From Arenimonas sp. (GTDB lineage Bacteria > Pseudomonadota > Gammaproteobacteria > Xanthomonadales > Xanthomonadaceae): DNA of 64,000 nucleotides. Under the pieces are notes generated by a model that was not told where the DNA came from, made no database searches, and saw nothing but the letters and a program-made list of their open reading frames with translations. The position numbers and the translations under genes are program-made. The stretch covers positions 1-64,000 of the forward strand of contig NZ_JALHQI010000004.1 of assembly GCF_022842045.1 (NCBI RefSeq), given 5' to 3'. Positions within the stretch are counted from its first letter, which is position 1. Each line of letters begins with the position of its first letter. This document shows positions 11,190 to 53,965 of the stretch, piece after piece.

Positions 11190-11249
11190 GGCGCCCGGTC
11201 TGTGAAGACCCGCACCCCCGGCAGCCGCCCCGCGGCCCGCCGGACCCTC

Positions 11250-11331
11250 CGCCGAGGGGCGCTGCAAGCCCGGTCCGCCAAGCGCGGGCAAGGGATCAGG
11301 CTCGGCGTAGGCTCCGTACCAACCGCGCCCG
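11250..11331 (+). promoter_or_regulatory. S-adenosylhomocysteine (SAH) riboswitch
   Basis: The aptamer lies 78 nt before the ahcY start. Stem P1 is perfect: CGCCGAG (11250-11256) with CTCGGCG (11301-11307). Between the arms are the family's conserved core GAGGGGCGCTGCAA and the closing CAGGCTCGG. The pseudoknot is also present: GGGCGC (11257-11262) pairs with GCGCCC (11325-11330). From memory the published consensus has GAGCGC/GCGCTC-type partners here, so this would be a compensatory change. SAH riboswitches switch on ahcY when SAH accumulates. Identification rests on motif, pairing and the gene downstream. Confidence 0.9.
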
Positions 11332-11346
11332 TTAACTTGAGACGGA

Positions 11347-29700: not shown

Positions 29701-32700
29701 TCAGGCATGGCCACCCACGGCGGGCGTCTCGGACTCGAGCTCCTCGAGCTTCCGCGCCACCGCCTCCGGCGACCGCGTGTACGGCGCCAGCAGCGCATAG
29801 AACGCCGGCACCACGAACAGCGACAGCGCGGTCGAGAACGCCACGCCCGAGATGATCACGATGCCGATGGTGGCGCGGCTGGCCGAGCCCGGACCGGCGG
29901 CCACGACCAGCGGCACCGCGCCCATGATGGTTGCGATCGAGGTCATCAGGATCGGCCGCATGCGCACGGCCGCCGACTCCACGATGGCGTTGCGGATGGC
30001 CATGCCCTCGTCGCGCAGCTGGTTGGCGAACTCGACGATCAGGATGCCGTTCTTCGCCGCCAGCCCGACCAGCATCACGATGCCGATCTGGCTGAAGAGA
30101 TTGAGCGAACTGCCGAACAGCCACAGGCCGATCAGCGCGCCCAGCACCGCCAGCGGCACCGTCAGCATGATCACCAGCGGATGCAGGAAGCTTTCGAACT
30201 GCGCGGCCAGCACCAGGTACACCACCAGCAGCGCCATAGCCAGCGTGAACAGCACCGCGCTGCCGGCGGTCTGGTACTCGCGCGATTCTCCCTTGTAGTC
30301 GATCTGGGCGCGCTCGGGCAGCTCCTCGTCGATCACCTGCTGCACCCAGGCCAGCGCTTCGCCCAGCGTGTAGTCCGGCGCCAGGCCGGCCGAGAGGGTG
30401 ATCGCGCGCAGGCGGTTGAACCGGTTGAACTGGCCCGGCTCCGCCAGTTCGGTCAGCGTGACCAGGTTGGCGAGCGGGATCAGTTCGCCCGAAGTGGACG
30501 AACGCACGTACAGGTTGGCCAGGTCGCTCGGGGAGCCGCGGTCCTCCTGCTGGGCCTGCAGGATCACGTCGTACTCCTCGCCATCCTCGACGTAGGTGGT
30601 GACGCGGCGCGAGCCCATCATCGTCTCGAGCGTGCGGCCAACCTCCTGCACCGACACGCCGAGGTCGGCCGCGCGGGCGCGGTCGATCTCCACGCGCAGC
30701 TGCGGCCGGGTTTCCTTGTAGTCGGAGTCGGCGCTGAACAGGCGCGGGTTCTCCTCCATGCGCGCCAGCACGCGGTCGCGCCACTCCGCCAACTCGGCGT
30801 AGTCCGGGCCGCCCAGCACGATCTGCAGCGGCTGGCCGCCGGAACGGACCAGGCCCGAGCGCACCTGCGGACGCGCGATAACGCCCGGCAGCGAGGCCAT
30901 GTCGGCGCGGATTTTCTCGACCAGCTCGGCGGTACCGGTGTCGCGCTCGTTCCATGGCTTGAGCAGGGCGATCACCTGGCCGGTGTGCATGTCGCCGCCC
31001 GGGCCGAAGCCGCCCGGCACGCGGGTGTTGGCGCGGTCGATCGGCTGGCCCTCGCCGACGTACTTGAACAGCCGCTCCTCGACCTGCTGCATCTGCTTGA
31101 CGGTGTAGTCGTAACCCGCGCCCTCGGGGCCGACCACCGAGATGAAGAAGGCGCCGCGGTCCTCGGGCGGCGTCAGCTCGACCGGGATCAGCTGCACCAT
31201 GAACCAGGACAGGCCGAGCGACCCCAGCAGCGCACCGCCCATCAGCAGCGGCCGGCCCACGGTGCGCTCGACCGCGCGGCGGTAGCCGCGACCCAGCGAC
31301 TCGAGGTGGCCCTGCACCCACTTGTTCAGGCCGCGCGGCGCCTCGTGCGCGCGGATCAGCTTCGAGCACATCATCGGCGTCAGCGTCAGCGCCACGAAGG
31401 CCGAGATCAGCACGGCCGCCGCCATCGCCACCGACAGTTCGCGGAACAGCCGGCCGGCGTTGCCCTCGATGAAGCCCACCGGCAGGAAAACCGCCGCCAG
31501 CACCGCCGTGGTCGCGATCACCGCGAACGCCACCTGCGCCGTGCCGCGGCGCGCGGCCACCAGCGGCGGCTCGCCCAGGTCGGCGCGGCGCTGCACGTTC
31601 TCCAGCACCACGATGGCATCGTCGACCACCAGGCCGATGGAAAGCACCAGGGCCAGCAGCGTCAGCAGGTTGATGGTGAAGCCGAAGGCCCAGAGCGCGA
31701 TGAACACGGTCATCAGGCAGATTGGCACCGTTACCGCCGGGATCAGCGCGGCGCGCACGCTGCCGAGGAACAGGTAGATCACGATCAGCACCAGGATCAC
31801 CGCCTCGAACAGGGTCCAATAGACCCGGTCCACGGCGGCGTCGATGAAGATGGTGCTGTCGAAGGCGACGAAGATGTCGGTACCCTGCGGCAAGGTGTCC
31901 TGGATCGCCGGCAGCGCTTCCTTCACCGCGCGCGCCACGTCGAGGCTGTTGGCGGTGGAGGTCTTGACCACGCCCAGGCCGATGTTGGGCTGGCCGTTGC
32001 CGCGGAAATAGGCGCGGCGCTCCGAGGAAGCCCGCTCGACCTTGGCCACGTCGGCCAGCCGCACCAGGTAGCCGTCGTCGCCCTTGGCCAGGGTCAGCTG
32101 GGCGAAGTCCTCGGCCTCGGCGTAGTTGCGCATCACGCGCAGGGTGAAGTCGCGGTCCTGCGACTCGATGCTGCCCGCAGGAAGCTCGACGTTCTCGCGC
32201 CGCAGCGCGTTCTCGACGTCGTTGACGGTGAGCCCGCGGGCGGCCAGCGCCTCGCGGTCGAGCCAGACGCGCATCGAGTAGCGCTGCTGGCCACCGACCC
32301 GGACCTGGGCCACGCCGTCGATGCTCGACAGGCGGTCGACCACGTAGCGCTCGGCGTAGTCGCTCAGCGCCAGCGTGTCCATGTTCGACGAGTTCATGTT
32401 CAGCCAGAGGATGACCTCGGCGTCGGACTCGACCTTCTCGATCTCCGGCGGGTCGGCCTCGGGCGGCATGCGGTCGCCGATGCGGCTGATGGCGTCGCGC
32501 ACGTCGTTGGCGGCGGCCTCGATGTCGCGCGACAGCGAGAACTCCAGCGTCACCTGCGCCTGGCCGTTGCGGCTGCGCGACTCCACCGTCTCGATGCCCT
32601 CGATGCCGGCCACCGCGTCCTCGAGGATCTGCGTGATGCGGGTTTCCACCACCGCCGCCGAAGCGCCGGGGTAGGACACCTCCACCGACACGATCGGCGG

Positions 32701-32823
32701 GTCGATATTGGGCAGTTCGCGCAGGGTCAGGCGGGTGAAGGCGATCACGCCCAACACCACCAGCAGCAGGCTCATGACGGTCGCGAAGACCGGGCGCTTG
32801 ATCGAAACGTCGGAGAGGACCAT
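29701..32823 (-). CDS. RND efflux pump, HAE1-type permease
   Basis: A 1040-residue inner-membrane proton/drug antiporter of the AcrB type. Twelve helices are arranged in two halves. The proton-relay residues are present: D401-D402 in TM4 (LVVDDAIVVLEN) and K924 in TM10 (LAAKNGILIVEF). The N-terminal SIKRPVFATVMSLLL is typical. It follows its adaptor gene by 19 nt on the minus strand. No TolC-like outer-membrane gene is adjacent, so it probably uses a shared channel. The multidrug function is inferred from the family. Confidence 0.92.
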   Translation of the reverse strand: MVLSDVSIKRPVFATVMSLLLVVLGVIAFTRLTLRELPNIDPPIVSVEVSYPGASAAVVETRITQILEDAVAGIEGIETVESRSRNGQAQVTLEFSLSRDIEAAANDVRDAISRIGDRMPPEADPPEIEKVESDAEVILWLNMNSSNMDTLALSDYAERYVVDRLSSIDGVAQVRVGGQQRYSMRVWLDREALAARGLTVNDVENALRRENVELPAGSIESQDRDFTLRVMRNYAEAEDFAQLTLAKGDDGYLVRLADVAKVERASSERRAYFRGNGQPNIGLGVVKTSTANSLDVARAVKEALPAIQDTLPQGTDIFVAFDSTIFIDAAVDRVYWTLFEAVILVLIVIYLFLGSVRAALIPAVTVPICLMTVFIALWAFGFTINLLTLLALVLSIGLVVDDAIVVLENVQRRADLGEPPLVAARRGTAQVAFAVIATTAVLAAVFLPVGFIEGNAGRLFRELSVAMAAAVLISAFVALTLTPMMCSKLIRAHEAPRGLNKWVQGHLESLGRGYRRAVERTVGRPLLMGGALLGSLGLSWFMVQLIPVELTPPEDRGAFFISVVGPEGAGYDYTVKQMQQVEERLFKYVGEGQPIDRANTRVPGGFGPGGDMHTGQVIALLKPWNERDTGTAELVEKIRADMASLPGVIARPQVRSGLVRSGGQPLQIVLGGPDYAELAEWRDRVLARMEENPRLFSADSDYKETRPQLRVEIDRARAADLGVSVQEVGRTLETMMGSRRVTTYVEDGEEYDVILQAQQEDRGSPSDLANLYVRSSTSGELIPLANLVTLTELAEPGQFNRFNRLRAITLSAGLAPDYTLGEALAWVQQVIDEELPERAQIDYKGESREYQTAGSAVLFTLAMALLVVYLVLAAQFESFLHPLVIMLTVPLAVLGALIGLWLFGSSLNLFSQIGIVMLVGLAAKNGILIVEFANQLRDEGMAIRNAIVESAAVRMRPILMTSIATIMGAVPLVVAAGPGSASRATIGIVIISGVAFSTALSLFVVPAFYALLAPYTRSPEAVARKLEELESETPAVGGHA

Positions 32824-43108: not shown

Positions 43109-43130
43109 AGTGCACGAGGAGCCGCCAGGC

Positions 43131-45065
43131 ATGCACCGCCCGCTCCCACTCGATTCACTGGACGCAAGCGTCGACGCGCTGTTCGCGGCGACCGGCCCGT
43201 CGCTGGTGCTCGCGGCGCCGCTGGGCCTGGGCAAGCCGCATCGGCTCCTCAACGCGATCACGCGGCGCGTGGCCGCCGACCCGTCGCTGTCGCTGCAGCT
43301 GCTGACCGCGCTTTCACTGACGCCACCGTCCGCCGGCCAGGGGCTGCAGAAGCGCTTCCTCGCGCCGTTCCTGTCGCGGCACTTCGGCGAAGGCTTCCCG
43401 GCGCTCGACTATGCGCTGGCCATGCGCCGCGATGCGCTGCCGCCGAACGTGGTGGTCGAGGAGTTCTACATGCAGTCCGGCGCCCTGCTCGGCTCGCGCC
43501 AGGCGCAGCGGCACTACACCAGCCTCAACTACACCCACGTGGCGCGCGCCGTGGCCGAGCGCGGCGCCAACGCCGTCGTGCAGAAGGTCGCCCGCGAGCC
43601 CGGCGGCACGCGGCTGAGCCTGAGCTGCAACCCCGACCTCACCTTCGACCTGCTCGACGAGACCGCGCGGCTGGGCAAGCCACGGCCCTTCATGGTGGCC
43701 GAGGTGGACCCGAACCTGCCCTGGATGGACGGCCCCTGCGCGGTGCAAGCGCACTTCTTCGACGCCGTGGTCGACCTGCCCGGCCCGGCGCCCAGGCTGT
43801 TCGCGCTGGTGCGCGAACCGGTCGGCGACGCCGACTACGCCATCGGCCTTTACGCCAGCGCGCTGGTGCGCGACGGCGGCACGCTGCAAATCGGCATCGG
43901 CTCGCTGTCGGATGCGCTCTGCCACGCGCTGGTGCTGCGCCACACGCGCAACGCCGACTACCTGGCCGCGCTCGAGGCGCTGTCGCCCGGGCTGGCCGCT
44001 TCGGCGCTGGTGCGCAGCACCGGCGGCACCGAACCCTTCAAGCTCGGCCTGTACGGCGCCAGCGAAATGGTGAATGACGGCTTCCGCCGCCTGGCCGAGG
44101 CCGGCGTGCTGTCGCGCCGGGTGCTGGACGAGACCGCGGCCATGGCGCGCATCAACCGCGGCCAGGCCACGCCCCACGACCTCGAGCGCCTGGACACCGA
44201 AGGCCGCTACCTCGACGGCGCCTTCTACCTCGGCTCGCACGCGCTCTATGACTGGCTGCGCGGGCTGTCGCCGGAACAGGCGCGCGGCATAGGCATGACC
44301 CGCGTCTCGCACATCAACGAGCTCTACGGCAACAACGAGGCGCTCGAGCGCGAGCAGCGCCGCGACGCACGCTTCTTCAACACCTGCATGATGATGACTG
44401 CGCTCGGCGCGGCGGTGTCCGACGGCCTGGCCGATGGCCGCGTGGTCTCCGGCGTCGGCGGCCAGTACAACTTCGTCGCGATGGCGCACGCCCTGCACGA
44501 TGCGCGCTCGGTGCTGATGCTGCGCGCCACCCGCGGCACCGCCGGCAACGTCGTCTGGAACTACGGTCACACCACCATCCCCCGCCACCTGCGCGACCTC
44601 GCCATCACCGAGTACGGCATCGCCGACCTGCGCGGCCGCAACGACGAGGACTGCATCCGCGCGATGCTGGCGATCACCGATGCCGCCCACCAGGCGGCGC
44701 TGGCCGGCGCGGCGCTGAAGGCAGGCAAGCTGGGCGAAGGCCGCGCACTGGTCGTCCCCGGGAACAACGCCGCCGCGCTGTCGCGCCGGCTGGCGCCGCT
44801 GCGCCGCGCGGGCGTGCTGCCGGATTACCCCATGGGCAGCGACTTCACCGAGGTCGAACAGCGGCTGGTGCGGGCGCTGGCCTGGCTCAAGCCGCGCGCC
44901 ACCGGCCTGGCGAAACTGCGCCTGCTGGGCCAGGCGCTGGCGGGCGGCGCCGCGACCGACGCCGAAGCCATGGCGCGCATGGGCCTGGACCGACCACGCG
45001 GCCTGTCGGAACGAATCGAGGCGCGCGTGCTCGCGCTGGCGCTTCGCCGCACCGCCGGCGACTGA
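43131..45065 (+). CDS. Acetyl-CoA hydrolase/CoA-transferase family protein
   Basis: A 644-residue protein with two CoA-transferase halves. The C-terminal ~200 residues match the acetyl-CoA hydrolase C-terminal domain (ITEYGIADLRGRND). The catalytic glutamate is probably E312 in GASEMVNDGF, preceded by LQIGIGSLSDALCHAL. ATG at 43131 with AGGAG nine bases upstream is preferred to the GTG at 43110. At 644 residues it is longer than typical Cat1/AarC proteins (~500-550), so an extra N-terminal region is present. It may hydrolyse or transfer CoA among short acids such as acetate and succinate. Confidence 0.8.
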   Translation: MHRPLPLDSLDASVDALFAATGPSLVLAAPLGLGKPHRLLNAITRRVAADPSLSLQLLTALSLTPPSAGQGLQKRFLAPFLSRHFGEGFPALDYALAMRRDALPPNVVVEEFYMQSGALLGSRQAQRHYTSLNYTHVARAVAERGANAVVQKVAREPGGTRLSLSCNPDLTFDLLDETARLGKPRPFMVAEVDPNLPWMDGPCAVQAHFFDAVVDLPGPAPRLFALVREPVGDADYAIGLYASALVRDGGTLQIGIGSLSDALCHALVLRHTRNADYLAALEALSPGLAASALVRSTGGTEPFKLGLYGASEMVNDGFRRLAEAGVLSRRVLDETAAMARINRGQATPHDLERLDTEGRYLDGAFYLGSHALYDWLRGLSPEQARGIGMTRVSHINELYGNNEALEREQRRDARFFNTCMMMTALGAAVSDGLADGRVVSGVGGQYNFVAMAHALHDARSVLMLRATRGTAGNVVWNYGHTTIPRHLRDLAITEYGIADLRGRNDEDCIRAMLAITDAAHQAALAGAALKAGKLGEGRALVVPGNNAAALSRRLAPLRRAGVLPDYPMGSDFTEVEQRLVRALAWLKPRATGLAKLRLLGQALAGGAATDAEAMARMGLDRPRGLSERIEARVLALALRRTAGD

Positions 45066-45178: not shown

Positions 45179-46045
45179 ATGCCCGCGCCCGACGTCCAGC
45201 CCTTTTTCCACGAGGAAAGCAGCACCTGGTCCTACCTGGTCATCGACCCGTCCACGAACGAAGCGGCGGTGGTCGACCCGGTGCTCGACTTCGACCCCAA
45301 GTCCGGCCGCACCTCGACCACCTCGGCGGAAGCCCTGCTGGCCGCGATCGCCGAGCGCGGCGCCACGGTCCGCTGGATCCTCGAGACCCATGCCCACGCC
45401 GACCACCTCAGCGCCGGCCACTGGCTCAAGCAAGAGCTGCCCGAGGCGCGCCTCGGCATCGGCCAGGGCATCCGCAAGGTGCAGAAGGCCTTCCGTCCGG
45501 TCTTCAACCTGGGCGAGCACTTCCCGGTGGACGGCTCGCAGTTCGACCATCTGTTCGCCGACGACGAGCGCTTCGCCATCGGCGTACTCGAGGCCCGGGT
45601 GATCCCGGTGCCGGGCCACACCAGCGATTCGGTGGCCTACCTGGTGTGCGATGCGCTGTTCACCGGCGACTCGCTGTTCATGCCCGACGGCGGCACCGCC
45701 CGCTGCGACTTCCCCGGCGGCGACGCCGCCACGCTGTACCAGTCCATCCAGCGCCTGTTCGAACTGCCTGGCGACACCCGCGTCTTCGTCTGCCATGACT
45801 ACGGCCCCGGCGGCCGCGAGGTGCGCTGCGAAACCACCATCGCCGAGCAGAAGCGCGCCAACATCCACGTGCGGGAAGGCACCAGCGAAGCCCAGTACGT
45901 GAAGATGCGCACCGAGCGCGACGCTACCCTGGCGATGCCGACCCTGATCCTGCCCGCGGTGCAGGTGAACATCCGCGCCGGCGCCCTGCCCGAGCCGGAA
46001 GGCAACGGCGTGCGCTACCTCAAGCTGCCGATCGACGCGCTGTAG
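45179..46045 (+). CDS. ETHE1/Blh-like metallo-beta-lactamase-fold hydrolase (probable persulfide dioxygenase)
   Basis: A 288-residue MBL-fold protein. The metal motif is LETHAHADHLS (HxHxDH), with further ligands in VPGHTSDS, FTGDSLF and VCHDYGPGG. This pattern matches Blh/persulfide dioxygenases of the ETHE1 type, which oxidise glutathione persulfide to sulfite, rather than glyoxalase II. AGGAG precedes the ATG, and a TTAGACT-like -10 lies upstream. Its neighbours (TrxC, rhodanese, DUF2892 and a BigR-like repressor) support a sulfane-sulfur role. It converges on trxC, with a 63-nt gap. Confidence 0.82.
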   Translation: MPAPDVQPFFHEESSTWSYLVIDPSTNEAAVVDPVLDFDPKSGRTSTTSAEALLAAIAERGATVRWILETHAHADHLSAGHWLKQELPEARLGIGQGIRKVQKAFRPVFNLGEHFPVDGSQFDHLFADDERFAIGVLEARVIPVPGHTSDSVAYLVCDALFTGDSLFMPDGGTARCDFPGGDAATLYQSIQRLFELPGDTRVFVCHDYGPGGREVRCETTIAEQKRANIHVREGTSEAQYVKMRTERDATLAMPTLILPAVQVNIRAGALPEPEGNGVRYLKLPIDAL

Positions 46046-46108
46046 GCGCGGGCTGGCGCCGACGCGCGTCGCCGCCAAGCGGGCCCCGACCGGGGCCTGC
46101 AGGGATGT

Positions 46109-46549
46109 TCAGCCGCCCAGCTGTTGCCGGGTCCAGCGCACGATGCCGTTGGCGTCCAGGGCGCCGGACTGGCGCGCGATCTCGCGGCCACTCCGGAACA
46201 GCACCAGGGTGGGGATGCTTCGGATGTTGTAGCGCTGGCCCAGCGTGGGCTGGGCCTGGGTGTCGACCTTGGCCAGCCGCACCTGCGGCTCGAGCACGCC
46301 GGCAGCGCGCTCGAAGTGCGGCGCCATCATCTGGCAGGGTCCGCACCACGGCGCCCAGAAGTCCACCAGCAGCGGCAGTTCGCTGCGGTCGGCGTGCGCG
46401 TCGAACCCGTCCACGCCCAGCGTGACCGGGTGCCCGGTGAACAGCGGCTGGTGGCAGTGGCCGCACTGCGGCGCGGCCGCGAGGCGGTCGCCGGGCACGC
46501 GGCTCCGGCCGTGGCAGTGCGGGCAGGCAATCACCAGGGGTTCGTTCAT
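46109..46549 (-). CDS. trxC: Thioredoxin 2 (zinc-binding thioredoxin)
   Basis: A 146-residue thioredoxin with an N-terminal zinc ribbon: C9-x2-C12 and C29-x2-C32. The redox centre is W68-C69-G-P-C72 in the thioredoxin fold. TrxC is the stress-induced cytoplasmic thioredoxin. The ATG overlaps the RND gene's stop (ATGA, four bases), so trxC is the last gene of the DUF2892-adaptor-pump operon. That links thiol reduction to the pump and is unusual. Confidence 0.94.
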   Translation of the reverse strand: MNEPLVIACPHCHGRSRVPGDRLAAAPQCGHCHQPLFTGHPVTLGVDGFDAHADRSELPLLVDFWAPWCGPCQMMAPHFERAAGVLEPQVRLAKVDTQAQPTLGQRYNIRSIPTLVLFRSGREIARQSGALDANGIVRWTRQQLGG

Positions 46550-49500
46550 GCGGTGCCTCCCTGCCGGCGCGCGCGGGCGCTGAGCAGCACGAAGTAAAGC
46601 AAGGGGATCACGACCAGCGTGAGCAGGGTCGAGACCAGGATGCCGAAGATCAGCGCGATCGCCAGGCCGTTGAAGATCGGATCGTCGAGGATGAAGAAAG
46701 CGCCCGCCATCGCCGCCAGGCCGGTCAGCGCGATCGGCTGCGCACGCACGGCGCAGGCCTCGATCACGGCGTCGGCCGGCGGCTGGCCCTCGGCGATCGA
46801 CTGGTTGATGAAATCCACCAGCAGGATCGAGTTGCGCACGATGATGCCGGCCAGCGCGATCATGCCGATCATGCTGGTGGCGGTGAACTGCGCGCCCAGC
46901 AGCGCGTGGCCCGGCATCACGCCGATGACGGTCAGCGGGATCGGCGCCATGATCACCAGCGGGACCAGGTAGTCACGGAACTGCGCCACCACCAGCAGGT
47001 AGATCAGCAGCAGGCCGACCGAATAGGCCAGGCCCATGTCGCGGAAGGTCTCGTAGGTGATTTGCCACTCGCCGTCCCACTTGATGGCGAAGCCCAAACC
47101 CGAGTCCGGCGCCGACAGGAAGCGCTGCTCGACCGGCGTGCCGGCCAGCGGCGCGTCGTCGACCTGGCCGACCAGGTCGAACATGCCGTACAGCGGGCTG
47201 TCGAGCTCGCCGGCCTCGTCGCCGGTGACGTAGACCACCGGCAGCAGGTCCTTGTGGTGGATCATCGGCTCCCAGGGCAGGCGGACGACTTGCACCAGCT
47301 CGGACAGCGGCACCAACCGGCCGTCGCCGGCACGCACGCGGACGGTGAGCAGCTGGTCCAGGCTGGCCTGGTCCCCTGCGGGCAGGCGCAGGCGCACCGG
47401 CACGGCGTACTTCGATGCGCCGTCGCGCAGGTACGTGGCATCGCGGCCGGAAACACCCAGCTGCAGTGCCTGGGCGATCGCGGCCTGGCTCACGCCCAGC
47501 TTCGCGGCCAGCCCGCGGTCGATGATCGCCAGCTCGCGCGGCGCCTCGGCCTCCAGCGAGCTGTCCACGTCGACGATGCCTTCGGTCGCGGCGAAGCGCG
47601 CCTGCAGGTCGCGGGCAATGGCACGGGCGCGGGCGGCATCGGGGCCGTAGACCTCGGCGACCAGCGGCGACATCACCGGCGGGCCCGGCGGCACTTCCAC
47701 CACTTTCACTGAAGCGCCGTAGCCTGCGCCGATGGCCGCCAGCGCCGGGCGCACCGCGCGGGCGATCTCGTGGCTCTGGCGGTCACGCGCGTGCTTGTCG
47801 ACCAGGTTCACCTGCAGGTCGCCGACGTTGGCGCCGGCGCGCAGGTAGTACTGGCGCACCAGGCCGTTGAAGTTCACCGGGCCGGAAGTACCGGCGTAGC
47901 CCTGCATGTCCAGCACTTCGGGCACGGTCGAGAGTTCCTGCGCCAGCTCAAGCAGCAGCGCATTGGTGCGCTCGAGCAGTGTGCCCTCGGGCAGGTCGAC
48001 CACGACCTGGAACTCGGACTTGTTGTCGAAGGGCAGCATCTTGAGCACCACCAGCTGCACCACCGCCAGGCCGGCGGCGGCGACCACGGCGGCGCCGATG
48101 CCGAGGAAGAGCAGCTGGCGCCGGCGCGGGCCCTGCCGGGCCTGCAGGAAGGGACGCAGCACCCGCTCGAACAGGCGGCGCAGGCGGTCGGACAGCCCTT
48201 GCTTCGGCCTGTCCTCGCCCACCGCATGGTCGTCGTGGCCGTGGCGCGTGAGCAGCTTGAGCGACAGCCACGGCGTCACCGTCAACGCGATCGCCAGCGA
48301 CAACAGCATGCCGACCGAGGCGTTGATGGGAATCGGCCGCATGTACGGGCCCATCAGGCCCGACACGAAGGCCATCGGCAGCAGCGCTGCGATGACGGTG
48401 AACGTGGCCAGGATGGTCGGGCTGCCGACTTCGTCGACCGCCGGCGGGATCGCCTCGCGCAGGGTCTTGCCGCCCAGGCGCATGTGGCGGTGGATGTTCT
48501 CGACGATCACGATGGCGTCGTCGACCAGGATGCCGATGGAGAAGATCAGCGCGAACAGCGACACCCGGTTGATGGTGAAACCCATCGCCCAGGACGCGAA
48601 CAGGGTCAACGCCAGGGTCAGGACGACGGCGCTGCCGACCACGATGGCCTCGCGCCAGCCGAGTGCGAACAGCACCAGCAGCACCACCGACAGCGTCGCG
48701 AACACCAGCTTCTGGATCAGCTTCATCGCCTTGTCGTTGGCGGTGTAGCCGTAGTCGCGGGTGAGGCTGACGTTGACGCCCTCGGGGATGTGGGTGGTCT
48801 TGAGGCCCTGCAGCCGGTCGCTGATGGCGCGGGTGATGTCGACCGCGTTCGCGCCGGGCTTCTTGGCCACCGCGATGGTGACCGCGGGCGCGACGCCGCC
48901 GGCCGGGCGCGCCTTGCCTTCGGGCGCGGTGTACCAGGCGTATTGCGTCGGCAGGTCGGCGCCACGGCGGATGTCGGCGACGTCCGCGAGATACAGCGGG
49001 CGGCCGCCCGCCAGGCCGATCACCAGCTCCGAGACCTGCTGGGCATCAGCGAGGTATTGCCCCGCGGTGAGCGGCAGCACCTGGCCGGCCGCCACGCGGT
49101 CACCGGCCTGGGTGACGGTGTTGGCGGCCGCCAGCGCGCCGGCCAGGTCGTCCACGGTCATGCCGTGCGAGGCCAGCCGGGTCGCATCGAGTTCGACCAC
49201 CACGGCGCGCTCGGGTGCGCCGATCGTGTAGACATCGCGGGTGCCGGGCACGCGCTTGATCTCGGCTTCCAGCGAATGCGCGACCTCGGCCAACTCGGTG
49301 GCGCCGCGGGCGGGGTCGTCGGTCCAGAGCGTCAGCGCCATCACCGGCACGTCGTCGATGCCCATCGGCCGCACCAGCGCCTGGCCGACGCCGAGGCCCG
49401 GCGGCGCCCAGTCGGCGTTGGAATAGACCTGGTTGTACAGCCGCACCAGCGCCTCCTGGCGCGGCACGCCCACCGCGAACTCGACCGTGATCAGGGCCGA

Positions 49501-49785
49501 GCCCGCGCGGCTGGTGGAATAGACGTGCTTGACGCCCTCGATCTCGGACAGCGCCTGTTCCAGCGGATAGCTGACCAGGTTCTCGACGTCCTCGGCCGGC
49601 GCGCCCGGGAAGGGCACGATCACGTTGGCCATGGTCACGTCGATCTGCGGCTCTTCCTCGCGCGGCGTGATCATCGTCGCGAACAAGCCCAGCAGCAGGC
49701 CCGCGATCGCCAGCACCGGCGTCAGCGGGTTGGCCTGGAAGGCGCGGGCGAGGCGCCCCGAGAGGCCGAAGCGCGGCTCAGCCAT
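46546..49785 (-). CDS. RND transporter with Arg in place of the TM10 relay Lys
   Basis: A 1079-residue RND permease. The TM4 relay pair is intact (D422-D423 in LVDDAIVIVEN), but the TM10 lysine of AcrB-type pumps is an arginine, R984 in LAGIIVRNSILLVDF. The sequence is distant from the HAE1 pump in this window and belongs to a group I recall beside rhodanese/DUF2892 genes. Overlaps the adaptor gene by 8 nt and trxC by 4 nt. Function is unproven; the context points to export of a sulfur compound or a thiol conjugate. Confidence 0.88.
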   Translation of the reverse strand: MAEPRFGLSGRLARAFQANPLTPVLAIAGLLLGLFATMITPREEEPQIDVTMANVIVPFPGAPAEDVENLVSYPLEQALSEIEGVKHVYSTSRAGSALITVEFAVGVPRQEALVRLYNQVYSNADWAPPGLGVGQALVRPMGIDDVPVMALTLWTDDPARGATELAEVAHSLEAEIKRVPGTRDVYTIGAPERAVVVELDATRLASHGMTVDDLAGALAAANTVTQAGDRVAAGQVLPLTAGQYLADAQQVSELVIGLAGGRPLYLADVADIRRGADLPTQYAWYTAPEGKARPAGGVAPAVTIAVAKKPGANAVDITRAISDRLQGLKTTHIPEGVNVSLTRDYGYTANDKAMKLIQKLVFATLSVVLLVLFALGWREAIVVGSAVVLTLALTLFASWAMGFTINRVSLFALIFSIGILVDDAIVIVENIHRHMRLGGKTLREAIPPAVDEVGSPTILATFTVIAALLPMAFVSGLMGPYMRPIPINASVGMLLSLAIALTVTPWLSLKLLTRHGHDDHAVGEDRPKQGLSDRLRRLFERVLRPFLQARQGPRRRQLLFLGIGAAVVAAAGLAVVQLVVLKMLPFDNKSEFQVVVDLPEGTLLERTNALLLELAQELSTVPEVLDMQGYAGTSGPVNFNGLVRQYYLRAGANVGDLQVNLVDKHARDRQSHEIARAVRPALAAIGAGYGASVKVVEVPPGPPVMSPLVAEVYGPDAARARAIARDLQARFAATEGIVDVDSSLEAEAPRELAIIDRGLAAKLGVSQAAIAQALQLGVSGRDATYLRDGASKYAVPVRLRLPAGDQASLDQLLTVRVRAGDGRLVPLSELVQVVRLPWEPMIHHKDLLPVVYVTGDEAGELDSPLYGMFDLVGQVDDAPLAGTPVEQRFLSAPDSGLGFAIKWDGEWQITYETFRDMGLAYSVGLLLIYLLVVAQFRDYLVPLVIMAPIPLTVIGVMPGHALLGAQFTATSMIGMIALAGIIVRNSILLVDFINQSIAEGQPPADAVIEACAVRAQPIALTGLAAMAGAFFILDDPIFNGLAIALIFGILVSTLLTLVVIPLLYFVLLSARARRQGGTA

Positions 49786-50848
49786 CGTCGCGCACTCCCG
49801 CCGCGGCCAGGTGGGCCAGCGCCGCCACCGGGTCGGCGGCGATGCGGTCGCCGTCGGCCAGGCCGGCCAGCACCTCGACCGCGTCGCCCTCGGCGCGGCC
49901 CAGGCGCACCTGGCGCAGCGCCACGCGGTTGCGTGCGTCCACCACGTACACCGCGGTCACTTCGCTGCGCGTGACCAGAGCCGAGCGCGGCACCCAGAGA
50001 TGTCGCGCCTCGCCGGTCTTGAACGCAGTCTTGACGGTCATGCCCGGCTGCAGGCCGGTGTCGGCCTCGGGCAGTTCGACCCGGACCTTGAAGCTGTGGG
50101 TCGCCGGATCGGCGTAGGGGAAAACGACGACGCGATCGGCTTCGATGCGGCGACCATCGGGCAGCAGCACCGCGGCGGCGCCGTGCTTGCGGATGGCGGC
50201 GATGTCGCTCTGCGGCACTTCCACGTTGATCCGCAGGCGATCCAGCGACAGGCCCGATACCAGCGGCTGGCCCGGCCGCACCGCTTCGCCGACCTCGACG
50301 TGGCGCTGGGTCAGGATGCCGGCATACGGCGCCCGGATGACGGTGTAGTCGACCTGCTCGCCCGCCTCGCTGACGCCGGCACGGGCGGCTTCGAGCGCGG
50401 CACGCGCGGCATCACGGCGCGCGCGGGCCTGGTCGAGCGAGGCGCGGGCCAGCAGCTGCCTGGCCACCAGCGCTTCGGTGCGCCTGAAGTCGGCCTCGGC
50501 CTCGGCCGCCGCCGCCTGCGCCGCGTTCACCGCCGCGGAGGCGCGCCGCTGCGCCGACACCTGTTCGACGTCGGTGAAGCGAACCACGACCTGCCCCGCT
50601 TCGACGTAGTCGTTCACGTCGAACGGCAGCTCCAGCACGCGGCCGGCGGTCTGCGCCGACAGCGTGGCCTGGTTCACGGCCTCCACCACGCCGTCCCAGC
50701 GCCGTTCGCGCGCGCTGTCGCGGGCCTCGACCACCACGGTGTCGAAGGACACCGGCCTGGCATCGCCAGGGGCGACGGGCTCCGCGCCGCAGCCCGCGAG
50801 GGCTACGGCGACGAGCATGGCGAGGGACAGTGGGCGCAGGCGGGTCAT
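49778..50848 (-). CDS. RND periplasmic adaptor lipoprotein
   Basis: A 356-residue membrane fusion protein with a signal ending in the lipobox LAGC (C ~20). Lipoyl-like half (LPFDVNDYVEAGQVVVRFTD), an Ala/Arg-rich coiled-coil hairpin (~95-155), second lipoyl half (IRAPYAGILTQRHVEVGEAV), then a beta-barrel and a membrane-proximal domain. It starts 9 nt after the DUF2892 gene and overlaps the pump by 8 nt. No outer-membrane channel gene is present. It is the pump's dedicated adaptor. Confidence 0.9.
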   Translation of the reverse strand: MTRLRPLSLAMLVAVALAGCGAEPVAPGDARPVSFDTVVVEARDSARERRWDGVVEAVNQATLSAQTAGRVLELPFDVNDYVEAGQVVVRFTDVEQVSAQRRASAAVNAAQAAAAEAEADFRRTEALVARQLLARASLDQARARRDAARAALEAARAGVSEAGEQVDYTVIRAPYAGILTQRHVEVGEAVRPGQPLVSGLSLDRLRINVEVPQSDIAAIRKHGAAAVLLPDGRRIEADRVVVFPYADPATHSFKVRVELPEADTGLQPGMTVKTAFKTGEARHLWVPRSALVTRSEVTAVYVVDARNRVALRQVRLGRAEGDAVEVLAGLADGDRIAADPVAALAHLAAAGVRDDG

Positions 50849-50857
50849 CGCGTCAGC

Positions 50858-51061
50858 TCACTTGAAGGCACAGCCGGACTTCACGCCCAGCTTGCCGAAC
50901 AGCATCGCCGCCGGGCAGAAGCCGGTGAAGGCCGCCTGCACCAGGTTCACGCCGACGAAAGCGGTGAGCAGCAGCCACAGCGGGCTGAAGAAATAGGCAA
51001 GCGTGACGCTGGCGAGGATCATCACGCCGGCGAAGGCCATCACGGCACGGTCGATGTTCAT
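50858..51061 (-). CDS. DUF2892 (YgaP-like transmembrane) protein
   Basis: A 67-residue membrane protein. The start MNIDRAVMAFAGVMILASVT and the C-terminal half VNLVQAAFTGFCPAAM are the DUF2892 signature, the same module as the membrane domain of the rhodanese YgaP. The FCPA cysteine and the later C65 are typical. In many bacteria it accompanies rhodanese and BigR/SqrR-type operons. First gene of the operon driven by the strong promoter at 51158-51186. Confidence 0.9.
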   Translation of the reverse strand: MNIDRAVMAFAGVMILASVTLAYFFSPLWLLLTAFVGVNLVQAAFTGFCPAAMLFGKLGVKSGCAFK

Positions 51062-51157
51062 GGGGTTCTCCTGGGGGTTGGGTTGGACGGGGAACGGCGG
51101 CCCTGGTCGACCACGGTGCTACCGTGGCCTGCAGCCGGGGATCGACCGGCTGTGCGT

Positions 51158-51186
51158 ATATTAGGTTCGTCTTAATTAGTTTTCAA
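51158..51186 (-). promoter_or_regulatory. Sigma-70 promoter of the DUF2892-pump-trxC operon
   Basis: On the minus strand, -35 TTGAAA (51181-51186) and -10 TAATAT (51158-51163) are separated by exactly 17 nt. It is the only strongly AT-rich segment in the 160-bp divergent gap. The AT-rich patch also overlaps the upstream region of the rhodanese-regulator operon (its CATAAT at 51188-51193). It is therefore the natural binding place for the ArsR repressor. Confidence 0.7.
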
Positions 51187-51221
51187 GCATAATGCGCCCA
51201 TCCCCACCGAGGCTCCCTGAC

Positions 51222-51611
51222 ATGCGTCAAACCCTCCAGCAGCTCCTGGCCGAAGCCAGGTCCCGTATCCGGGAGATCAACGCCGATGAACTGCGCGCCC
51301 TGCAGGCCCGCGGCGTGCCGGTCGTGGACGTGCGCGAGCCGGCCGAATACGCGGCCGGCCGCATTCCCGGCGCCAGCAACATCCCGCGCGGCGTGCTCGA
51401 ATTCGAGGTCGACGGCCACCCGGCCGTGAACTGCGCGCGCGACCCGGCCCTGGGCCATCGTGACCAGCCCATCGTCGTCTACTGCCGCAGCGGCGGCCGC
51501 TCGGCCCTCGCGGCCGAGGCGCTGCAGCGCCTGGGCTTCGCCGAACCGCTGTCGCTGGCCGGTGGCTACCTGGCCTGGACCGAGGGCGGCGGCGCGGTGG
51601 AGGGCGCATGA
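51222..51611 (+). CDS. Single-domain rhodanese
   Basis: A 129-residue sulfurtransferase domain. The active-site Cys is C88 in VVYCRSGGRSALAA, with the usual VVDVREPAEYAAGRIPGASN. ATG at 51222 with GAGG upstream is preferred over the in-frame ATG at 51192, because the latter overlaps the CATAAT -10 element. Moves sulfane sulfur through an enzyme persulfide. Its TGA overlaps the regulator gene (ATGA). Confidence 0.92.
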   Translation: MRQTLQQLLAEARSRIREINADELRALQARGVPVVDVREPAEYAAGRIPGASNIPRGVLEFEVDGHPAVNCARDPALGHRDQPIVVYCRSGGRSALAAEALQRLGFAEPLSLAGGYLAWTEGGGAVEGA

Positions 51612-51943
51612 GCCCGGCCCGCACCCTCGCGGCCAACGCCGGCCGGCAGATGCAGGCCCAGGCCGAGGCAGCGTCGGAACTGCTCAAGGCCATGGCCAAC
51701 CCGCAGCGCCTGCGGGTGCTGTGCCTGTTGATCGAGCGGGAGATGTCGGTGGGCGAGATCAACGCCCTGGTCGACCTGAGCCAGTCGGCGCTGTCGCAGC
51801 ACCTGGCGGTGCTGCGCGAGAAGAACCTGGTCAGCACGCGGCGCGAGGCCCAGACCGTGTACTACGCGGTCAGCGACGGCCTGGTGCACGACATCATCGA
51901 GACCCTGCACGCCGCCTTCTGCTCGCCCGGCCGGACCGGCTGA
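51608..51943 (+). CDS. ArsR-family regulator with BigR/SqrR-type cysteine pair
   Basis: A 111-residue winged-helix repressor. Recognition helix SQSALSQHLAVLREKNLV. C39 (LRVLCLLIE, in alpha2) and C105 (HAAFC, last helix) lie at the positions of the two cysteines that form a tetrasulfide in BigR and SqrR when persulfide is present. Metal-site motifs of classical ArsR/SmtB (ELCVCDL) are missing. It is therefore probably a persulfide sensor. The gene is coupled to rhodanese and diverges from the pump operon, so autoregulation at the shared promoter region is likely. Confidence 0.85.
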   Translation: MSPARTLAANAGRQMQAQAEAASELLKAMANPQRLRVLCLLIEREMSVGEINALVDLSQSALSQHLAVLREKNLVSTRREAQTVYYAVSDGLVHDIIETLHAAFCSPGRTG

Positions 51944-51964: not shown

Positions 51965-53965
51965 TCAGAGCGCCTTGGCGGCATCGACCACGGCCTCGAC
52001 GGTGATGCCGAAGTGCGCGTAAAGGTGGTCGGCCGGCGCCGAGGCGCCGAAGCTGTCGATGCCGACCACCTTGCCGTCCAGGCCCACGTACTTGTGCCAG
52101 AATCCGGTGACGCCGGCTTCGACCGCGACGCGCTTGCGGCACCACGACGGCAGCACCGCCTCGCGCCACTCCAGCGGCTGGCGGTCGAAGACCTCGGTGC
52201 TGGGCATGGACACCACGCGCGCCTTGATGCCGTCGCTGGCCAGGCGGCGCATGGCCTCCATCGCCAGCTCGACCTCGGAACCGGTCGCGACCAGCAGCAC
52301 GTCGAAGCGCGCCTCGCCCGGATCGGACAGCACGTAGCCACCCCGGGCGATGTCGGCGACCTGCTGCGCCGTGCGCGGCTGGTGCGCCAGGTTCTGGCGG
52401 CTGAAGACCAGGCAGCTGGGGCCGTCGGTGCGCGCGATGGCCGCCCGCCAGGACACCGCCGACTCGACCGCGTCGCAGGGGCGCCAGACGTCGTTGTTCG
52501 GGATGTAGCGCAGTGAGGCCAGGTGCTCGACCGGCTGGTGGGTGGGGCCGTCCTCGCCCAGGCCGATCGAGTCGTGGGTGAACACGTGGATCGTGCGGGT
52601 CGGGATCAGCGCCGACATGCGCAGCGCATTGCGCGAGTAGTCGGAGAAGACCAGGAAGGTGGCGTCGTAGGGCAGGAAGCCGCCGTGCAGGGCCAGGCCA
52701 TTGCTGATCGCGCTCATGCCGAACTCGCGAACGCCGTAGTGCACGTAGTTGGCGTTGGCGTCGTCGGACGTCACCGACTTGCTGCCCTTCCACAGCGTGA
52801 GGTTGGAATGGGCGAGGTCGGCGGAACCGCCGATCAGCTCCGGCAGCAGCGGCGCGAAGGCTTCGATCGCCATCTGCGAGGCCTTGCGCGAGGCCACGAC
52901 CGGGCCGTCGAGCTGCAGCTTGTCGATATAGGCCCGGGCGGCGGCGTCGAAGCCTTCCGGCAGCTCGCCGCGCGAACGCCGCACCAACTCGGCGGCCAGG
53001 TCGGGGTAGGCCTTGGCGTACGCGTCGAACAGACGGTTCCACTGCTCCTCGCGCACCAGGCCGGTGTTGCCGGCGCGCCAGCCGTCGGCGATGGCCTGCG
53101 GGATCTCGAAGGGCGCGTGCGGCCAGCCGAGCGCGGCGCGGGTCGCGGCCACCTCGTCCTTGCCCAGCGGGGCGCCGTGGCTCGATTCCTTGCCGGCCTT
53201 GCCGGGCGAGCCGAAGCCGATCGTGGTGCGGCAGCAGATCAGGGTCGGCTTGCCGGTCTCGGCCTGCGCGGTCTTGATGGCCTGGGTGATCTCGACCGGG
53301 TCGTGGCCATCCACCTTGCGGATCACCTGCCAGCCGTAGGCCTCGAAGCGCGCCGCGGTGTCGTCGGTGAACCAGCCCGAGGTGTCGCCGTCGATCGAGA
53401 TGCGGTTGTCGTCCCAGAACGCGATCAGCTTGCCCAGGCCCCAGGTGCCGGCCAGGGACGCGGCCTCGTGCGACACGCCCTCCATCAGGCAGCCGTCGCC
53501 CAGGAAGACCCAGGTGTGGTGGTCGACGATGTCGAACTCGGGGCGGTTGTAGCGCTGCGCCAGCAGCTTCTCGGCCAGCGCCATGCCCACGGCATTGGCC
53601 AGGCCCTGCCCCAGCGGCCCAGTGGTGGTCTCGACGCCGGGCGTATGGCCGTACTCGGGGTGGCCGGCGGTCTTGCTGTGCAGTTGGCGGAAGCGCTTGA
53701 GCTGCTCGATCGGCAGGTCGTAGCCGCTCAGGTGCAGCAGCGCGTAGATCAGCATCGAGCCGTGGCCGTTGGACAGCACGAAGCGGTCTCGGTTGAACCA
53801 CTTCGGGTTGCCGGGGCTATGGCTCAGGAAGTCGTTCCAGAGCACCTCGGCGATATCGGCCATGCCCATCGGCATCCCGGGATGGCCCGACTTGGCGGCC
53901 TCCACGGCGTCGATGGCCAGGAAGCGGATGGCGTTGGCGAGCTCGCGGCGGGAGGGCGTGGTCAT
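51965..53965 (-). CDS. tkt: Transketolase
   Basis: Thiamine-diphosphate enzyme of the pentose phosphate pathway, transferring two-carbon units. 666 residues. Signatures: [35 protein letters not shown], ThDP-binding LGDGCLMEG with [10 protein letters not shown], and the C-terminal transketolase domain. The convergent ArsR gene ends 22 nt from its stop codon. The 98 nt upstream (53966-54063) hold no visible feature. Confidence 0.96.

Follow-up and report, generated by a model that had tools for sequence, protein, structure and literature searches.

A putative sulfane-sulfur stress module with its own RND efflux pump in Arenimonas sp.

Described systems and the Arenimonas locus

Regulators of the SqrR, BigR, SoxR, sHdrR, YgaV and HlyU group of the ArsR family carry the same two cysteines, and have genes for sulfide:quinone oxidoreductase (SQR), persulfide dioxygenase (PDO) and rhodanese as neighbours (PMC12423496; published systems are described here from excerpts of the cited papers). 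According to one sentence of that source, two-Cys ArsR regulators seem to act also on membrane proteins such as resistance-nodulation-division (RND) pumps, these membrane proteins being described as shown or likely movers of sulfur compounds; no study of an RND pump appeared in the section concerned. The locus described here joins a two-Cys ArsR gene to a full RND pump, and its ArsR differed from the named group in scoring below the BigR cut-off. It lies in a stretch of 64,000 nucleotides of Arenimonas sp. (assembly GCF_022842045.1, contig NZ_JALHQI010000004.1, positions 1 to 64,000), hereafter the window, where sequence and profile analyses placed seven adjacent genes at 45179-51943. The seven genes were interpreted, with a rough probability of 0.58, as a locally repressed module for sulfane-sulfur (persulfide and polysulfide) stress with its own efflux pump.

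In the bigR operon of Xylella and Agrobacterium a two-Cys repressor, inactivated by H2S and polysulfide via Cys42 and Cys108, likewise stands over a persulfide-oxidising enzyme with a transporter; the enzyme there is the two-domain Blh and the transporter is TauE-related, whereas the window had a single-domain dioxygenase gene and a full RND pump (PMC5823870). The ygaVP genes of E. coli resembled the window in an ArsR accompanied by a rhodanese and a YgaP-type membrane domain (PMC9774250), but in the window rhodanese and membrane domain were encoded by separate genes and a pump operon was added. A further similar operon was Dsui_3440-3443 of Azospira suillum PS, encoding an unknown protein, an efflux pump, SQR and an RND adaptor, which was highly expressed under H2S oxidation (RNA-seq) and picked out by Bar-seq (PMC5358917). 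Like related loci, it united the genes of SQR, RND pump and adaptor in a single operon, and its reversed order would equal the adaptor-SQR-RND-DUF2892 order of two related loci described below (L201 and L210) if its unknown protein is a DUF2892 protein; it differed from the window in containing SQR and in gene order. A separate DUF2892 gene of Azospira was induced about 10-fold, and its deletion caused a slight delay of the onset (PMC5358917).

No work on sulfane-sulfur export by an RND pump was found in the open full-text literature, as covered by the titles and abstract starts of the best matches, with subscription papers and preprints lying outside the search. The first-pass annotation, made from the letters of the window, had known of no characterised system of this composition, which was nearly right; the link of two-Cys ArsR regulators to RND pumps was already in print (PMC12423496), and data existed on the Azospira operon of SQR and pump (PMC5358917).

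The gene of the metallo-beta-lactamase (MBL) protein (45179..46045, plus strand) converged on a minus-strand operon of DUF2892 (50858..51061), RND adaptor (49778..50848), RND permease (46546..49785) and trxC (46109..46549), and this operon diverged from plus-strand rhodanese (51192..51611) and arsR (51608..51943) genes. All seven genes, with their convergence and divergence, were found by coordinates and profile matches where the first-pass annotation had placed them. By coordinates, the RND and trxC genes overlapped by 4 nt, the adaptor and RND genes by 8 nt and the rhodanese and arsR genes by 4 nt; the rhodanese could also start further in, at the ATG at 51222.

The MBL protein (Lactamase_B) matched the Blh model, which has 423 positions, from 141 to 423 only (384 bits, cut-off 625), and its best PDB matches, nearly full length, were the single-domain MBL structures 9g8t (377 bits) and 4ysk (332 bits), the latter presumably PDO2 of P. 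putida. Its translation showed the metal-ligand motif HAHADH followed by a later H/D/H. The dioxygenase half alone was present and the sulfurtransferase half of Blh was absent; the protein was therefore not the Blh that had been proposed as one option (ETHE1/Blh-like), and is classed from its sequence as a stand-alone persulfide-dioxygenase type (ETHE1/SDO family). TrxC, a zinc-ribbon thioredoxin 2, exceeded the cut-off of NF008229 (132.5 bits, cut-off 125) and matched Zn_ribbon_Thio2 as well. The single-domain rhodanese matched PF00581 (77 bits), with the CRSGGR active-site loop visible in the translation, and the DUF2892 protein matched PF11127 (49 bits, cut-off 25), a family that carries the name of YgaP; a cysteine of DUF2892, Cys49 in the window, was invariant in 93 of 93 aligned pump-associated copies.

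Recurrence of the pump with sulfur genes

Pump relatives were sought in an even draw of 151 genomes from the order, of which 71 had an RND match at E ≤ 1e-200 (73 matches including that of the window). For each of the other 72 matches, at most about 19 kb of sequence, or less where a contig ended, was retrieved and scored with profiles of the locus families. A sulfur gene was defined as SQR, dioxygenase, rhodanese or DUF2892 at 5 kb or less from the pump. Pumps at least 69% identical to that of the window, which was included, had a sulfur gene in 34 of 34 loci, compared with 1 of 40 other RND pumps, the single case being a rhodanese match of 30 bits at a distance of 4.9 kb (Fisher p = 2.5e-20, relatedness ignored). 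The 40 controls came from 25 of the same genomes and were hand-picked to spread; they were found with a second RND permease of the window (29785-32781, minus strand; about 31% identical to the locus pump) as probe. Counting ArsR as well increased the controls to 4 of 40, the three additional ones having a weak ArsR match (47-51 bits).

The 34 orthologous loci contained a divergent ArsR in 33 cases and DUF2892 upstream in the pump operon in 32. In 21 of them an SQR scoring above 500 bits stood inside the pump operon, with ArsR on one side and the pump genes on the other, and a representative one matched PDB 3sz0, which we take to be the SQR of A. ferrooxidans, at 520 bits. Rhodanese and OsmC were each present in 12 loci, dioxygenase in 10 and TrxC in 9, and the MBL protein and TrxC were thus optional members of the module (10/34 and 9/34). 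Among named relatives, the pump was nearest to that of an Arenimonas metagenome-assembled genome (L150; 85% identity).

Other genes were seen near related pumps. A weaker SQR-family gene (about 330-380 bits) was located downstream of the pump in L153, L156, L159, L160, L172, L175, L060 and L065, mostly Luteimonas- or Thermomonas-like loci. Genes of DUF302 recurred in or beside the pump operon in L055, L056, L059, L062, L064, L066, L157, L163, L166 and L179, mainly Rhodanobacter-like, and OsmC/Ohr-like genes also occurred in several.

At greater distance, pumps of 39-45% identity had sulfur neighbours in 2 of 7 loci; L106 and L107 (about 40% identical) had the order rhodanese-RND-adaptor-ArsR, L106 with a PDO-type dioxygenase in addition. 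Relatives at about 44% identity co-occurred with SQR in 30 of 43 genomes among the matches listed. The long open frames of three of these loci (L102-L104) had been considered for a fused extra sulfur domain, which was rejected, the extension being a Lys/Ala-rich C-terminal tail. Named genome loci were taken as the best 80 of at least 584 confirmed matches, and one or more of ArsR, SQR, DUF2892, rhodanese and dioxygenase lay within 5 kb in 48 of the 80, two or more in 42. At the level of genomes, in a draw of 369 from the class, SQR was found among the matches listed in 55 of 103 genomes carrying the pump (at least 53% identity) and 49 of 266 without it (odds ratio 5.1), a comparison given little weight, as it ignored relatedness and its lists were hand-typed.

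A FastTree tree placed the window in a clade of 60 rows, apart from a mainly betaproteobacterial clade of 13 rows with DUF2892 downstream of the pump. Only four of the 40 controls entered the tree, as its outgroup, and any row below 900 aa or containing two or more stops was excluded; the program warned on long branches. Gene order varied among loci, being ArsR-adaptor-RND-DUF2892-rhodanese-TrxC in Thiobacillus and adaptor-SQR-RND-DUF2892 in Uliginosibacterium (L201) and an uncultured bacterium (L210), the latter also with a dioxygenase. Parsimony changes of neighbours on the tree were many (ArsR 19, SQR 25, DUF2892 9), hence the partners of the pump come and go.

The pump homologue was carried by 48 plasmid records at about 36-57% identity. 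Twenty of the 48, from 17 genera (Sphingomonas left out), were inspected, and all 20 were re-scored by hidden Markov model over 6 kb on each side because their annotation was incomplete (none for 2 of 20). At least two of ArsR, SQR, DUF2892, rhodanese and dioxygenase were found in 13 of the 20 loci, and at least one in 15. The order on the Rhizobium binae plasmid was ArsR divergent from SQR-DUF2892-adaptor-RND, and R. rhizogenes had the same order plus one additional gene between ArsR and SQR. The locus of Paracoccus denitrificans PD1222 comprised RND PDEN_RS23380, adaptor PDEN_RS23385 and DUF2892 PDEN_RS23390 and also had YeeE, DUF6691 and a TIGR01244 sulfur transferase, that of Azospirillum brasilense Sp7 had TrxC, SQR, DUF2892, pump, rhodanese and ArsR, and those of Rhizorhabdus and Novosphingobium contained a TolC-family channel. 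Homologues came also from Methylocella, Aeromonas and cyanobacteria; the cyanobacterial ArsR matches were weak (26-46 bits) and not clearly of the two-Cys type. Cytochrome bd genes were seen near distant plasmid homologues of Rhizorhabdus, Methylocella and Pseudanabaena galeata (L282, L283 and L289).

The pump and its repressor

The RND permease (1079 aa) matched ACR_tran (PF00873; 507 bits, cut-off 28) and reached the cut-off of none of the NCBIfam RND subfamily models that it matched, whether multidrug, i.e. HAE-type (NF033617, 450 of 1250 bits; NF000282, 384 of 1250; TIGR00915, 311 of 940), or metal (HME, CusA/CzcA; TIGR00914, 241 of 701); therefore it was assigned to the RND superfamily only. 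The other full-length RND matches of the genome were at most 31% identical to it, and its best solved relative was MdtB, at only 233 bits. In common with AcrB and MdtB it had PF00873 and kept AcrB columns D407, D408, R971 and T978, invariant in nine family rows aligned with AcrB at 20-25% identity; we take these columns to have the proton-relay roles of the AcrB residues. It differed from both in an arginine at the lysine column of transmembrane helix 10 (K940 in AcrB, R984 in the window), found in 9 of 9 and 15 of 15 rows of two family alignments, in a low cysteine content, in its sulfur-gene neighbours and in the missed subfamily cut-offs. TPREEEPQ near the start was a second mark of the subfamily.

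Cysteines numbered 0-1 in 33 of 34 orthologues and none in 63 of 69 sister members; control RNDs of the same genomes had a median of 3 over the matched span (31 of 40 controls) or of 4 over whole frames (37 of 40). The first count covered the 69 of 71 sister loci and 31 of 40 controls that were long enough, with one control mis-framed (88 Cys), and the second used whole stop-to-stop frames, which may inflate the control values. The adaptor, a membrane fusion lipoprotein with lipobox LAGC, exceeded the cut-off of TIGR01730 (217 bits, cut-off 95).

The ArsR-family repressor (HTH_5) had both BigR/SqrR cysteines that the first-pass annotation had read in it, C39 and C105, at the BigR/SqrR/HlyU positions (42 and 108 in BigR), the second cysteine region being aligned to HlyU. 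Its PDB matches were, in order, HlyU, NolR, an ArsR-family entry, YgaV and BigR. Both cysteines were kept in 83 of 87 ArsR matches within 5 kb of pumps (loci L000 and L038-L229), as scored with a profile built from the orthologous loci, which favours two-Cys ArsR. The other four were a different ArsR lacking the first cysteine, in the Burkholderiales loci L212, L219, L222 and L229, which suggests that another regulator may have been recruited beside the pump there.

Between the divergent operons, an operator-like motif WWWAG-N6-CTAAW was matched by pattern at 51160..51175 (minus strand). It was present in 51 of 58 divergent intergenic regions (two of 60 were dropped), whereas dinucleotide shuffles averaged 0.1 and random pieces taken from these loci gave 5 of 580. 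The regions on which the motif was scored were also those that had yielded it, and some of them belonged to one genome or to near-identical genomes, so that the 51 are not independent. The match was the only one in the window (0.02 expected), and the whole genome had four, compared with two for the reversed pattern. Two other genomes (G075 and G136) had exactly one match each, at the pump locus (reversed pattern 16 and 8), and two more had one at the locus among two (G116; reversed 7) or four (G101; reversed 15) places. G091, whose locus lacks ArsR, had no match genome-wide (reversed pattern 10), and no site of this pattern was found at the MBL gene. This distribution fits a local repressor of few targets, and the motif is considered a putative operator.

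Further features lay outside the seven genes. The locus was flanked on the left by an acetyl-CoA hydrolase/transferase-like gene (43110-45065, plus strand; 651 aa), of which Pfam recognised the C-terminal domain only and which also adjoined the locus of relative L038, and on the right by a transketolase gene (51965-53965). An SAH riboswitch at 11248-11337 (plus strand) exceeded the Rfam gathering score, with 45.6 bits.

Explanations of the locus

By analogy with described proteins, the two-Cys ArsR would sit on the operator between rhodanese-arsR and DUF2892-adaptor-RND-trxC and keep both operons off; accumulating persulfides and polysulfides would bridge C39 and C105, the repressor would leave and both operons would be expressed. 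Rhodanese would then move sulfane sulfur, the dioxygenase would oxidise persulfide to sulfite, and TrxC would reduce persulfides and polysulfides. The RND pump and adaptor, with a TolC-type channel encoded elsewhere, may expel surplus sulfane sulfur or its product, and DUF2892 may act as a membrane partner of the pump. The regulatory and genomic side of this explanation is well supported in the orthologous clade: the gene content, the conserved co-localisation, the two cysteines of ArsR and the nearly locus-specific motif agreed with the single sulfur theme proposed at first pass, in which ArsR regulates locally and the pump truly belongs to the module. A narrower version, in which the RND subfamily is dedicated to exporting zero-valent sulfur (as polysulfide, organic persulfide or S8) and the invariant cysteine of DUF2892, as small membrane partner, passes sulfane sulfur from rhodanese or SQR to the cysteine-poor pump, is offered tentatively, as a doubtful possibility.

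Several observations weigh against a sulfane-sulfur module with its own pump. The SQR was absent from the locus of the window, and its genome (95% complete) had no match at E 0.001 with a query that, at E ≤ 1e-80, found SQR in 104 of the 369 genomes drawn from the class and that more distant SQR types could escape; the composition of the locus departs from that of its relatives, where SQR is the usual first gene of the operon, while the order of divergent two-Cys ArsR, DUF2892, adaptor and RND was kept. Both other loci of the genus with the pump (L038 and L039) carried SQR, and its loss in the lineage of the window is the simplest reading. The pump itself was patchy, being carried by 8 of the 25 family members drawn; of three other genomes of the genus, two had it (87% and 83% identity) and one had no match at E ≤ 1e-200. 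The ArsR scored 89.4 bits with the BigR equivalog NF040642 (cut-off 155) and was therefore not filed as BigR itself. No pump residue was linked to sulfur binding. In Azospira, H2S was oxidised no faster or slower after the whole operon had been deleted (0.49 vs. 0.50 mM/h), the excerpt reports neither a tolerance or sulfur-export assay nor the sign of the Bar-seq effect, and the pump was likened to that of the window by operon composition alone (PMC5358917).

Intermediate pumps were mostly solo adaptor-RND pairs, and sulfur neighbours were infrequent among them, being found in 2 of 32 at 53-64% identity in the order draw and in 6 of 40 fetched at 53-65% in the class draw (40 loci hand-picked, mostly on longer contigs, from the 103 of 369 genomes with the pump). 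None of the five module genes was found in 32 of the best 80 named loci or in 5 of the 20 plasmid loci (Alloyangia, two of Shinella, Flammeovirga and Sphingopyxis). Solo copies included those of Thioalkalivibrio, Thiothrix and Thiohalophilus. In the 39 order-draw loci at or below 64% identity, no neighbour cluster beyond the adaptor occurred in more than 5, and therefore no second function could be assigned to solo pumps. Sulfur-gene coupling is a property of particular clades and not of the whole pump family. The first-pass annotation had proposed to judge the pump by the neighbours of its homologues, with a majority of metal- or drug-resistance genes as the opposing outcome; these neighbours favoured sulfur for the orthologues (34/34) and for the inspected plasmid homologues (15/20), and spoke neither way at 53-65% identity.

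Among the alternatives, the one that survived best keeps the same regulation and has the pump clear compounds generated or damaged by sulfide (metal-sulfide complexes, oxidised lipids or toxic organics) and not sulfane sulfur; it was judged unlikely. Three further RND transporters of Azospira were upregulated under H2S oxidation, for which the authors proposed metal-sulfide export (PMC5358917), and weight was therefore shifted slightly from the sulfane-sulfur module to this alternative. It also agrees with the two- to threefold increase of AcrAB, MdtABC and EmrAB transcripts by H2S overproduction in E. coli (PMC11481527), and with a multidrug RND permease being the best NCBIfam model of the pump, although under its cut-off. 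A general stress pump, however, would not need a recurrent coupling to sulfur genes, and it was one RND subfamily that recurred with SQR, DUF2892 and rhodanese in several orders, whereas 39 of 40 other RNDs did not.

Export of sulfite or thiosulfate, produced by dioxygenase and rhodanese, was regarded as improbable, as RND pumps mainly take amphiphilic or periplasmic substrates. A dioxygenase was near only 10 of 34 orthologous pumps, whereas SQR was near 21. TauE-type exporters hold this place in the FisR operon of A. baumannii (PMC7315123) and in the bigR operon (PMC5823870), which speaks for such a substrate.

A metal or metalloid resistance island, with ArsR as metal sensor and the RND as metal exporter, was very improbable. 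The family name of ArsR and its score with a metalloregulator subfamily model (94.5 bits, cut-off 55) would fit it, as would the genes of a CDF transporter and a metal-sensing repressor that lay some 2-5 kb past the pump on one plasmid (L281); against these stood the low score with the HME model, exceeded by the multidrug models even though these also missed their cut-offs, the nearness of ArsR to HlyU, with YgaV and BigR among its matches and the persulfide cysteine pair in 83 of 87, and the recurrence of sulfur and not metal genes beside the orthologous pumps. Equally hard to credit was an ordinary drug pump hitch-hiking by chance among sulfur genes, since the common standalone adaptor-RND copies of the family, and TetR-linked ones without sulfur genes on Shinella and Sphingopyxis plasmids, were outweighed by 34 of 34 loci compared with 1 of 40 controls and by recurrence in differing gene orders across proteobacterial classes and cyanobacteria.

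We know of no named transporter that exports SQR-made zero-valent sulfur from bacteria, and a full-text search aimed at this question gave no paper on it, as judged by title. The sulfane-sulfur module names a specific RND subfamily, coupled to sulfur genes in distant bacteria, as a testable candidate for expelling reactive sulfur, and supplies a putative operator and named carrier strains, Paracoccus denitrificans PD1222 and Azospirillum brasilense Sp7. The published Azospira operon, which had been set aside, gains a conserved context, and pumps of this kind, although labelled efflux RND permeases, may serve in sulfur stress. If the pump were a dedicated exporter, the module would be the sulfur exit route of SQR-bearing proteobacteria and cyanobacteria.

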